A DNA stretch of 64,000 nucleotides from Ligilactobacillus faecis (GTDB taxonomy: Bacteria; Bacillota; Bacilli; Lactobacillales; Lactobacillaceae): NCBI RefSeq assembly GCF_029889745.1, contig NZ_CP123639.1:1276501-1340500 (forward strand). The letters are read 5' to 3'. How positions within the stretch are numbered: position 1 is the first letter of the stretch; each line of letters opens with the position of its first letter. Position numbers and translations under genes: made by a program. This document shows, piece after piece, positions 55,166 through 60,553 of this stretch. The notes under the pieces were generated by a model that saw only the letters and a program-made list of their open reading frames with translations, was not told the origin of the DNA and searched no databases.

Positions 55166-55291
55166 GCAAAGTATCGCTTTTTATTTTAAATAAATATTGT
55201 TCAAATTACTACCACTATTTTTAAATAATGCAAGAAATATGCTTACTAAGGTGGTACAATGAGTGACAGTTAGCTTTAGAAAGTGAGAAAG

Positions 55292-57412
55292 ATGATGGAG
55301 AAATACTTAAAGATCGCAGTTTCTAAAGGGCTTGAAGCAAGTGTGCCAGCACCATATGAGGCTCTTTTAGTAACACCAACATTGGAATTGAGCCAGCTAG
55401 CTGCATTAGTTTTGACAAAAGAAGAGGCAAAATTCTTGGCCAAAGAAGCTAAACGCTATGGTTTGCCAGTGTTTGAAACGACACCTAAGAAAGCTAGAGA
55501 ACTAAAAGCAGATGTTTTACAGGCCGCTTTAGCTTATGAGCAAAAAAACGTGCCACGTTTTTTGACTGATCTGATCAACTATGCTGATGAGCATCCAGTT
55601 AGCTTTACGACGCCAGGACACCATAACGGTGAGTTTTATCGGCGTCATCCAGCGGGACAAGTCTTTAAAAAGTTCTTCGGTGAAAAAATGCTTTATGCAG
55701 ATGTCAGTGATACGATCCCTGAGTTGGGCGATACGTTGACGCATGGTGGCACTCCACTTGAAGCCGAACAAATTGCCGCTCAAGCTTTTAATGCTGATAA
55801 AGCTTATTTTTGTACAAATGGAACGACAAGTTCAAACACGATCTGTGCGACAGCCGCTTTAACGAAAGGTGATCTAGTATTATTTGATCGTAATAACCAT
55901 AAATCTTTGTATAATAGTGCACTAGTCATGACTGGGGCTAAACCAGTCTATTTGAAGACAGATCGTGATCCACTAGGTCTGATCGGGCCTTTACTTGAAA
56001 GTGAACTTGATGAAGCAAAGATTCGGCAAAAGATCGCACAGCTCGCTCCTGAAAAAGCAAAAGCCAAACGTCCGTTTCGCTTAGCTGTCTTGCAGTTAGA
56101 AACATATGATGGTGTTTTTTATGATGCTAAACACTTACTTGAAAAATTAGGACCGTTGTGCGATTATATCTTGTTTGACTGTGCGTGGGGCGGATACGAA
56201 CAGTTCGTGCCTTTGATGAAAGAATTGTCTCCGCTTAGTTTAGAATACGGACCAGACGATCCAGGGATCTTAGTGACACAATCGATCCATAAACAACAGG
56301 CTGGGTTAGCCCAAACTTCGCAGATCTTGAAAAAAGATGCCCATTTGAAAGGGCAAAAACGCTATATCGATCATAAACATTTTAATAATGCCTATTTAAA
56401 ATACGTGACGACAAGCTATTCTTATCCGATCTATGCCTCTTTAGCAGTAAATGCTTTTATGGCAGCAAGTCCACTAGTGACCCAATGGTGGGAAGAGACG
56501 CTTTGTTTAGGGATCGAATTTCGTAAAAAACTGTTACGTCAAAGTAAACTCTTCAAGCCTCTAATTCCGCGGGAAATTGACGGGGTCTTATGGGAAGATA
56601 TCCCGACAGAAGAGTTGGCTACAAAGCTCAAATATTGGCGCTTACTGCCAACTGATCTGTGGCATGGTTTCAGCCATGTCGGAACAAAAGAGGCGATCAT
56701 CAGTCCGTTGAAATTGACGGTAACTTGCCCTGGCGTCGATATTTCCCAGGGAATATATACTCAAAACGGGATCCCAGGTCCGATCCTCGGAGAATATTTA
56801 ATAGAAAAGCGGATCATTCCGGGGAAATCTGATCTCTATTCGACGTTATTTTTCTTGACTCCAGGTGAAGATGAACAAAGTATGCAAACTCTGTTGGCGG
56901 CCTTTTTAGAATTTGAAGAGCTTTATTTAAGTGAAGCTCCGTTAGAAAAGGCTTTACCACGGTTAGTCGCAAAATATCCAAAGCGTTATGCAGGTTATAC
57001 TTTAAAACGTTTGTGTGATGAGATGCACGCTTATTACAGTGAACATCAGATCTATCATTTACAGCAAGAACTGTTTTTGAAAGAAACACTCGGAGATCAT
57101 CCCTTGACACCATATGAAGCAGATCAATGTTTCATGCGAAACGAAGGGAAACTTTATCCTTTAGATGAACTTGTCGGAAAGATCGCTTTAGAAGGAGCTT
57201 TACCTTATCCGCCAGGAGTCTTTATCGTTGCGCCTGGTGAAAAATGGCAAGCACTTGATGTCGCTTATTTTAAAATTTTACTAGGTGAGATCGAACGCTT
57301 TAGTGGTTTTGATCCTGAGATCCAAGGGATCTATTTAGAAAACACAAGCAAAGGTCTCACTGCAAACGGTCATGCTTTGGAAATAAACAGTGCTGACCTA
57401 TACTCAGAGTAA
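55292..57412 (+). CDS. Orn/Lys/Arg decarboxylase, inducible type (probably ornithine decarboxylase)
   Basis: 706 residues from ATG 55292 (GTG 55283 or ATG 55295 are alternatives). PLP fold-type I with an N-terminal wing domain. Family motifs: TTPGHHNGEFYRRHPAG, FCTNGTTSSNTI, LFDRNNHKSLYNSAL, the PLP lysine in QSIHKQQAGLAQTSQ, DHKHFNNAY, and the C-terminal GALPYPPGVFIVAPGEKW. It resembles the biodegradative ornithine decarboxylase of L. saerimneri 30a in length and most motifs, though lysine as substrate cannot be excluded. It consumes a cytoplasmic proton and releases CO2; with the divergent permease it forms a decarboxylation/antiport acid-resistance module. Confidence 0.9.
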   Translation: MMEKYLKIAVSKGLEASVPAPYEALLVTPTLELSQLAALVLTKEEAKFLAKEAKRYGLPVFETTPKKARELKADVLQAALAYEQKNVPRFLTDLINYADEHPVSFTTPGHHNGEFYRRHPAGQVFKKFFGEKMLYADVSDTIPELGDTLTHGGTPLEAEQIAAQAFNADKAYFCTNGTTSSNTICATAALTKGDLVLFDRNNHKSLYNSALVMTGAKPVYLKTDRDPLGLIGPLLESELDEAKIRQKIAQLAPEKAKAKRPFRLAVLQLETYDGVFYDAKHLLEKLGPLCDYILFDCAWGGYEQFVPLMKELSPLSLEYGPDDPGILVTQSIHKQQAGLAQTSQILKKDAHLKGQKRYIDHKHFNNAYLKYVTTSYSYPIYASLAVNAFMAASPLVTQWWEETLCLGIEFRKKLLRQSKLFKPLIPREIDGVLWEDIPTEELATKLKYWRLLPTDLWHGFSHVGTKEAIISPLKLTVTCPGVDISQGIYTQNGIPGPILGEYLIEKRIIPGKSDLYSTLFFLTPGEDEQSMQTLLAAFLEFEELYLSEAPLEKALPRLVAKYPKRYAGYTLKRLCDEMHAYYSEHQIYHLQQELFLKETLGDHPLTPYEADQCFMRNEGKLYPLDELVGKIALEGALPYPPGVFIVAPGEKWQALDVAYFKILLGEIERFSGFDPEIQGIYLENTSKGLTANGHALEINSADLYSE

Positions 57413-57466: not shown

Positions 57467-57709
57467 ATGAAAGGCAAAGAAGTTTTAGAGCTTTTAGGAA
57501 ATGATGTCAAAGTTTCGCTTCATTCCGATGCTTCGGCTTATTTTGGTGGTTATATCGCTGATAACTATTATGCGTTAGCACAAAAATATGCCCTAACTGA
57601 AGAACAGCTAGGGCAATTAGCACGGAATTCATTTGAAACTGCTTGGATCAGCGCTGAACAAAAAGTGCTCTATTTGGCAGAGTTAGAGGCCTATTTAAAA
57701 GCTAATTGA
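57467..57709 (+). pseudogene. Adenosine deaminase, C-terminal remnant
   Basis: About 80 codons (DVKVSLHSDASAYFGGYIADNYYALAQKYALTEEQLGQLARNSFETAWI...) match the last quarter of adenosine deaminase. The family's catalytic/metal segment, normally NSDDP, reads HSDAS here, and the N-terminal three quarters, with the other metal ligands, are gone. Weak coding similarity extends a few codons upstream (PNEFIASD) before frame breaks. There is no ribosome site at the internal ATG. It overlaps the end of the convergent GNAT gene by 8 bases. Confidence 0.75.
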
Positions 57710-58187
57710 CTTTTTGATAGGCTAAACGCTTAGTCTGATCGTCAGTGTAGATGATGCCACAATACTGAAAACCATTTTTAGTGATCAGATGTTGCATGAT
57801 CAAATTATCGGGATGAGTATCGATCTTAAGGTTAGCGCACTTTGCTTCACAAAAGGCTAGGGCTTTTTCAAAAACACCTTTGATCTGACCATTGCCAGCG
57901 ATCCGGTGGATAACACCATAAGGGCGGTCGTTTGCCCACTGGCCTTCGATCTTCTGATAAGTCGGGTCTGCCCCACAGATAAAGGCAAAGACGCCACCTA
58001 ATGTGTGTTCTGGTGTTTCAAGCACATATAAAACTTGCTTGGCGATATCTTGTTTGATCAGAGCTAAAGGCGGGTGTTTTTTGCCCCACTGATCAGGATT
58101 ACCATTTTGAGCCATTTGTTTACGTGCATAAGCGTAGATCGCACTGATCGCTTCGAGATCAGCCAAAGTTGCAAGTCGGATATTCAT
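57702..58187 (-). CDS. GNAT-family N-acetyltransferase
   Basis: 161 residues from ATG 58187 (AAAGGAG upstream; the frame opens earlier at 58214 without a ribosome site). The N-terminal IRLATLADLEAISAIYAYARKQMAQNGNPDQWG is typical of a lactobacillar GNAT group. Motif A is divergent: the usual QxxGxG/A loop is replaced by GVIHRIAGNGQIKGVFEKALAFCE, and DTHPDNLIMQHLITKNGFQYCG is the motif B region. The substrate is unknown. Monocistronic, divergent from the cysteine-biosynthesis leader. Confidence 0.82.
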   Translation of the reverse strand: MNIRLATLADLEAISAIYAYARKQMAQNGNPDQWGKKHPPLALIKQDIAKQVLYVLETPEHTLGGVFAFICGADPTYQKIEGQWANDRPYGVIHRIAGNGQIKGVFEKALAFCEAKCANLKIDTHPDNLIMQHLITKNGFQYCGIIYTDDQTKRLAYQKVN

Positions 58188-58235
58188 TAGCGGACACTCC
58201 TTTTTGAAAAACATTATAACAAGTTAAGAAAAAAC

Positions 58236-58264
58236 TTGCATTTACAAATAGTAAGTGTTATGAT
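58236..58264 (+). promoter_or_regulatory. Promoter of the transsulfuration operon
   Basis: TTGCAT (58236-58241) and TATGAT (58259-58264) are separated by 17 bases. Transcription would start at ~58271, giving a ~210-base leader before the first enzyme gene. Confidence 0.75.
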
Positions 58265-58295
58265 CGAAACAACGATCGAAAGGACGGAAAAATAC

Positions 58296-58373
58296 ATGAA
58301 GAACTTATTTTTAACACAAACAGTTTTTGTTACATGTTGTTGCTCTCGGCGCTACTTTAGCGAAGAGAGTTGA
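58296..58373 (+). CDS. Cys-rich leader peptide (attenuation)
   Basis: 25 codons: MKNLFLTQTVFVTCCC followed by SRRYFSEES and TGA. Three consecutive Cys codons (TGT TGT TGC at 58335-58343) sit just upstream of the attenuator. AAAGGA lies 11 bases before the ATG. The peptide has no domain; its role is inferred from the layout: promoter, short frame with a run of the codon for the pathway's end product, competing hairpins, terminator, then cysteine biosynthesis genes. Ribosome stalling when Cys-tRNA is scarce would cover 58350-58354 and release 58355-58367 for antiterminator pairing. Confidence 0.82.
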   Translation: MKNLFLTQTVFVTCCCSRRYFSEES

Positions 58374-58412
58374 TTTGAGCTGTGATCAGTTAAAGTAAGG
58401 ACTTCTTCGGAT

Positions 58413-58450
58413 AAAGGGCGCAAACTTTCACCGGTTTGCGCCCTTTTTGT
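58413..58450 (+). terminator. Attenuator terminator upstream of the transsulfuration genes
   Basis: Perfect 13-bp stem AAAGGGCGCAAAC / GTTTGCGCCCTTT with an 8-base loop and a T-run, located before any structural gene. Upstream pairings: pause hairpin CGCTA-CTT-TAGCG (58350-58362) and the alternative CTTTAGCGAAGAG (58355-58367) with CTTCTTCGGATAAAG (58402-58416), whose last four bases overlap the terminator stem. Confidence 0.88.
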
Positions 58451-58481
58451 GTCTTTTGATCGCAAGAAAGAAGGGATGAAG

Positions 58482-60553
<2,072 letters not shown>

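Follow-up and report, generated by a model that had tools for sequence, protein, structure and literature searches.

Organization of the cysK2-cgl leader region

Within the window, by which we mean the whole 64,000-nucleotide stretch of Ligilactobacillus faecis DNA that was analyzed, the cysteine-making genes cysK2 and cgl, which overlap by 4 nt, are preceded by a small leader ORF with three Cys codons and by a switchable RNA stop signal (Table 1).

Table 1. Features of the cysK2-cgl locus and its neighbors (positions of the window)
Feature	Position	Strand	Basis
Putative ornithine decarboxylase, lactobacillar type	55283-57412	+	TIGR04318, over curated cutoff
80-aa ORF, adenosine deaminase-like	57467-57709	+	
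Small protein, GNAT-like	57702-58214	-	reading alone
Promoter-like site, TTGCAT-17-TATGAT with TGn before the -10 element	58236-58264 (-35, 58236-58241; 17-nt spacer; -10, 58259-58264)	+	read directly from the sequence
Shine-Dalgarno-like motif of the leader ORF, AAGGACGG	58280-58287	+	sequence
Leader peptide ORF, 25 codons, MKNLFLTQTVFVTCCCSRRYFSEES	58296-58373	+	translation
Sensor codons TGT TGT TGC	58335-58343	+	translation
H1 hairpin (1:2), beginning inside the last Cys codon	58342-58370	+	fold
Region 2, antiterminator 5' strand	58349-58366	+	58355-58366 by fold; 58349-58352 by eye; pairing tests
Region 3, antiterminator 3' strand, overlapping the terminator 5' arm	58404-58421	+	58404-58416 by fold; 58418-58421 by eye; pairing tests
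Intrinsic terminator (3:4), 13 bp, with T-run	58413-58449 (stem, 58413-58446)	+	scan, fold
cysK2, cysteine synthase/cystathionine beta-synthase-like PLP enzyme	58476-59417 (start at 58476 or 58482)	+	Pfam PALP above cutoff; NCBIfam matches below curated cutoffs
cgl, cystathionine gamma-lyase/synthase-like enzyme	59414-60553	+	Pfam Cys_Met_Meta_PP above cutoff; best NCBIfam matches below curated cutoffs

Most of these elements had been proposed in a first-pass annotation of the sequence. Translation confirmed its 25-codon frame with tandem Cys codons, its 13-bp terminator was found by both scan and fold, and its alternative pairing that invades the base of the terminator was recovered by folding. 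The promoter that it had described, with a spacing of 17 nt, is present on direct reading, though it matches only 8 of 12 consensus bases and, for this reason, is absent from the list of a mechanical scan that requires 9 of 12; a best-score promoter search of the region chose another site. At the relatives' loci L010, L011, and L012, the promoter-like arrangement is alike by eye. The pause hairpin placed by the same annotation at 58350-58362 also exists, but this range covers its inner part only, and the full hairpin, here termed H1, is longer by fold. The stop codon of the leader ORF lies directly behind H1, and the 5' arm of the hairpin would lie under a ribosome stalled at the Cys codons.

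The alternative helix between regions 2 and 3 (58355-58366 with 58404-58416) lies within a fold of -18.4 kcal/mol once the 5' arm of H1 is omitted. As judged by eye, GCGC at 58349-58352 may extend this antiterminator by pairing with 58418-58421, which would carry it further into the terminator than previously stated. In folds of the window leader, antiterminator and terminator are mutually exclusive, since the 5' arm of the terminator is common to both. When 58200-58481 was subjected to dinucleotide shuffling, a Shine-Dalgarno (SD) motif followed by a short ORF with CCC appeared in 1 of 5,000 shuffles, on which ground a chance ORF was rejected. The folded leader has a z score of -4.3, with an equally low value in 0 of 200 shuffles, and an antiterminator duplex equal to or better than that of the window was obtained in 45 of 2,000 shuffles.

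The small protein encoded divergently from the leader has no NCBIfam or Pfam match; sequence similar to it is seen by eye at the corresponding place in L010 to L012. The 80-aa ORF next to it matches the C-terminal part of adenosine deaminase alone (about 256 to 332) and looks like a gene remnant.

The tandem-Cys leader ORF is conserved in the Lactobacillaceae

A CysK2 protein search of 397 Lactobacillaceae genomes (E ≤ 1e-90) located 106 places in 105 genomes of 15 genera. Upstream DNA was taken for 105 of them, with the partial match in G270 left out, and one of these loci (L017) was not examinable for a leader because its contig ends 112 nt upstream. All 104 examinable loci carry a short ORF in which two or three Cys codons stand in tandem, at a distance of 174 to 526 nt upstream of cysK2, preceded in 102 cases by an SD-like motif as detected by pattern match (L109 and L115 are without it). 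With the addition of L023, a locus from the genus that is not among the 106, they form the set of 105 family leaders used below. An SD-preceded ORF with two or more tandem Cys codons occurred in 2.5% of dinucleotide shuffles, on the reverse strand of 1 of 119 control sequences (the 105 family leaders and 14 from other families), and in 1 of 106 stretches located 900 to 1,500 nt upstream.

Among 108 distinct ORFs from the relatives, each position of the Cys run uses both TGT and TGC, and we thus reject the reading that these codons are kept merely as RNA sequence. An alternative is that cysteine or a thiol makes the nascent peptide stall its own ribosome, independently of tRNA charging. Cys-rich peptides could be redox sensitive, and the residues behind the Cys run are common within genera; however, two Cys alone are invariant across 20 diverse leader peptides, and the overlapping RNA stem may account for the residues that follow them. 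We regard arrest by the peptide as very unlikely.

H1, terminator, and antiterminator across leaders

H1 folds at -8 kcal/mol or lower in all 105 family leaders, compared with 13% of control stretches, and in 96 of them its first paired base is the second nucleotide of the last Cys codon. A terminator was found in 104 of the 105 Lactobacillaceae leaders. Covariation was assessed in an alignment (A1) of 42 leaders picked by similar peptides, out of 44 in that class and 118 leaders with a terminator; A1 covers six Lactobacillaceae genera and, in addition, six leaders from another family, and the window's own leader lies outside it. Without guidance, RNAalifold recovered H1 and the terminator from A1, with two-sided changes in 14 of 22 pairs, a count that, like the other covariation and pairing statistics given here, was computed without regard to the kinship of the leaders. 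When H1 and the terminator were specified together as the structure, they were 93.9% paired and had 49 two-sided cells versus 14.6 in shuffled alignments, while further pair types (24 versus 22.9) were not above shuffles.

For the antiterminator, A1 gave 84.2% pairing and 20 two-sided cells versus 8.7 in shuffles; neither the number of its pairs with two-sided change (4 versus 4.3) nor that of its pair types (24 versus 22.4) was above shuffles. When the antiterminator was slid by one column, the two-sided cells rose to 25, versus 20, yet only 48.9% of the cells were paired. The same pairing was examined by an alignment-free duplex test, in which the 30 nt that follow the Cys codons were paired with the region of the terminator 5' arm in 95 distinct leaders (103 before removal of duplicates; L023 and L115 were left out). 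The mean for regions 2 and 3 from the same leader was -22.3, and 2,000 permutations of the partners had a mean of -15.0 and a minimum of -16.3. The shuffle z score was below -2 in 79 of the 95 leaders, and the duplex takes in at least 5 nt of the terminator 5' arm in 92; in only 54 was the leader's own partner better than 95% of the partners from other genera. Conserved Cys codons and covarying stems in relatives, named by the first-pass annotation as the check on its reading, are hence both found, and the in silico part of that check speaks for an attenuator.

Leaders outside the Lactobacillaceae

An order-level cysK2 search of 395 genomes yielded 74 places, 60 of which are outside the Lactobacillaceae; 58 of these were examined (G495 and G622 were left out). 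A tandem-Cys ORF is present at 53 of the 58 loci, at one of them (L140) by eye since its SD misses the pattern, and all 53 leaders have a terminator. The five loci without the leader are L162, L194, and three of genus g54 in family f2 (L143, L148, and L161). In the g54 loci, neither a Cys leader nor a T-box core motif is found within 1,500 nt upstream of cysK2, which is likely under other control there. Upstream of cysK2 in L194 (genome G717), a leader-like ORF has Cys-Trp in place of the Cys run and a terminator-like stem is kept; this is perhaps a leader in decay or one with a changed sensor. Three Bacillales relatives (L203, L204, and L205) have no leader in the 1,500 nt scanned.

Support for the pairing between leader and terminator is uneven in these families, with a z score below -2 in only 17 of the 53 leaders. 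It is supported in families f2 and f7, where the median shuffle z per genus is -2.1 to -3.2, and at one locus of family f3 (genus g96; z of -3.5). In the rest of f3 and in f8 and f9, it is unsupported, with medians of -0.1 to -1.6; inclusion of the terminator loop gave a median z of -1.0 for 25 leaders of f3.

The leader on Lacticaseibacillus plasmids

Among plasmids, 32 records of the collection carry cysK2 at E ≤ 1e-90, all of them from Lacticaseibacillus, and the leader is present in each of the five records that were read. On the plasmid of the cheese strain L. paracasei FAM18149, the leader MMSQSMFNAINCCCRTTRFWRCSAC lies at -262 of the operon, and the palindrome AAGGGCGCGAAA-N16-TTTCGCGCCCTT at -118 is the terminator. 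In this strain, transcripts of cysK2-ctl1-cysE2 in cysteine-free medium exceed those in methionine-free medium by a log2 value of 2.9 to 3.2, with threshold cycle (Ct) values of 21.4 versus 25.7 for ctl1 and of 23.8 versus 23.6 for recA (Wuthrich et al. 2018, PMC6004538). The operon also shows high coverage of its 5' UTR, for which those authors caution that structured leaders are possibly enriched through RNase III fragmentation (PMC6004538). As excerpted, the same article describes the operon as having no T-box, a rho-independent terminator, and an antisense RNA at the 3' end, credits the palindrome before cysK2 genes to Liu et al. 2012, and calls the mechanism of cysteine control "yet to be discovered" (PMC6004538). 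The leader offers a mechanism for this published question, namely, how cysK2-ctl1-cysE2, which is tied to sulfur flavor in cheese, is induced in L. paracasei in the absence of cysteine.

The palindrome, published as a possible regulatory motif, is thereby recast as a terminator. That it acts instead as a DNA operator, i.e., as a binding site, is in our judgment very unlikely. It is conserved upstream of these genes and quoted as a motif in PMC6004538, and symmetric changes are also expected of a DNA palindrome; however, it has a T-run behind it and comes after the leader ORF, and from family to family the stem persists although its sequence changes. An operator would furthermore leave the Cys ORF, H1, and the pairing between H1 and the palindrome stem without explanation.

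Leaders before other cysteine-related genes

With a leader profile built from 20 leader peptides, the window locus is the sole match in its own genome at E ≤ 1. At the genus level, 38 matches were obtained at E ≤ 1, of which 19 were examined (18 with E ≤ 0.002 and L248 with an E value of 0.052). In sister species, the leader is found before a MetA-like acyltransferase with cysK (L241, at the same place as in L029) and before a permease and an ATPase whose best NCBIfam matches, below cutoff, are cystine transporters (L242). Leader peptides with CCCC precede OppA-like genes in L244, L245, L246, and L248, a call made by Pfam and NCBIfam for L245 and by similar protein starts for the other three, hinting at the import of cysteine-containing peptides. 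The sequence of L243 ends before the downstream gene. For L243, L244, and L246, the start chosen by the script lacks an SD, and a GTG after a G-rich stretch is our reading. In these sister-species leaders at genes other than cysK2, the Cys run is followed by a stem, a terminator is present, and a duplex between the two was found. The combination of a tandem-Cys leader and a terminator may serve as a marker for finding cysteine-related transporters. Nine order-level profile matches lie outside the Lactobacillaceae (E values of 6e-4 to 0.0066); six were read by eye and showed no leader, and L255, L259, and L261 were left out. At a further locus (L264, positions 1486-2800, genome G069), an oppositely oriented, transposase-looking ORF separates a Cys leader from a cgl-like gene.

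Proposed mechanism

T-boxes, which bind tRNA directly and without translation, are the norm in the phylum, and the window's own genome has 19 T-box matches at E ≤ 0.001, of which 7 exceed the cutoff. A T-box or metabolite riboswitch governing this operon can nevertheless be dismissed with near certainty: none of the 19 matches lies within the window, in line with the first-pass annotation, which had seen no T-box motif at the locus, the window and ten loci have no match in Rfam 15 at gathering score, T-box family RF00230 included, and the T-box core motif is absent from 164 oriented upstream regions (105 leaders, L017, and 58 loci outside the Lactobacillaceae).

The anatomy of the leader, its conservation, the covariation of H1 and the terminator, and a pairing that excludes the terminator are observed features of the region. 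We consider it highly probable that they constitute a cysteine-specific, ribosome-mediated transcription attenuator that senses charged tRNA-Cys, and we infer from them that ribosomes stall and thereby alter read-through. With ample cysteinyl-tRNA, the ribosome would clear the Cys codons and arrive at the stop codon behind H1, hiding region 2, and the terminator would then form. When cysteinyl-tRNA is scarce, the ribosome would stall at TGT TGT TGC. A stalled ribosome covers roughly the next 12 nt, and here it would sit on the 5' arm of H1 and leave the RNA from about 58355 onward free. Region 2 could then pair with region 3 and so occupy the terminator 5' arm, which would let RNA polymerase continue into cysK2-cgl. 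In the window RNA before the 3' arm of the terminator is made, the antiterminator fold (-27.2) is preferred over H1. Given this preference of the free RNA, termination must be set by where the ribosome stands or by the order in which the RNA folds; the off state would require a ribosome positioned at the stop codon or a suitable order of folding. Under this attenuator, cysK2-cgl is most likely switched on only when cysteine is short.

On a broader scale, the distribution of the leader suggests that in the Lactobacillales, where T-boxes prevail, cysK2 usually stands behind a translated leader peptide. We lean toward the view that, in this order, leader-peptide attenuation is the general means by which reverse transsulfuration senses cysteine, with a regulon that in some species adds cysteine synthesis, cystine transport, and OppA-like proteins. 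By the same view, the attenuator moves on plasmids together with its operon, and the antiterminator element, which lies inside the leader coding sequence, has been remade from unrelated sequence in different families.

Comparison with known systems

Attenuators of this kind are well known; the cysteine instance in the Lactobacillales is widespread and was not found in print. Mycobacterial Cys leader peptides are reportedly cysteine responsive, to go by the title of Canestrari 2020, but they are leaderless short ORFs. Among the literature matches listed, drawn from a literature poor in subscription journals, no paper describes a cysteine leader peptide in the Lactobacillales, in agreement with the excerpted text of PMC6004538 and with the initial impression that such attenuation is undescribed in lactobacilli.

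Similar to the leaders described here, actinobacterial cys and cbs leader peptides place several Cys codons in a row ahead of cysteine genes; however, those runs are near the stop codon, no terminator hairpins were found according to the excerpted account, and the phylum is a different one (PMC1262725). The uORFC-8-2 motif of Rhodobacterales cysS, likened here by description only, has a tandem-Cys upstream ORF, stems, and a terminal U-run, with predicted ribosome-mediated attenuation, but it belongs to Alphaproteobacteria, precedes a cysteinyl-tRNA synthetase gene, and holds the Cys codons in its first stem (PMC8632094). Within the Firmicutes, leader-peptide attenuation has been predicted for hisS/hisZ (PMC2965389), and the Rli60 ilv leader of Listeria is an experimentally tested ribosome-mediated attenuator with a leader peptide and alternative terminator and antiterminator, which differs in its branched-chain amino acid codons and in its ilv-leu genes (PMC5864092). 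The cysteine T-box of the glnP2 operon in L. paracasei responds to the same amino acid, with higher expression in the absence of cysteine (PMC6004538), whereas no such T-box is present at the cysK2-cgl locus. The overall plan is that of the Escherichia coli trp attenuator, with its segments pairing as 1:2, 2:3, and 3:4; the latter system differs in its Trp codons and in the position of the stop codon, which there lies between segments 1 and 2 and here just behind segment 2.
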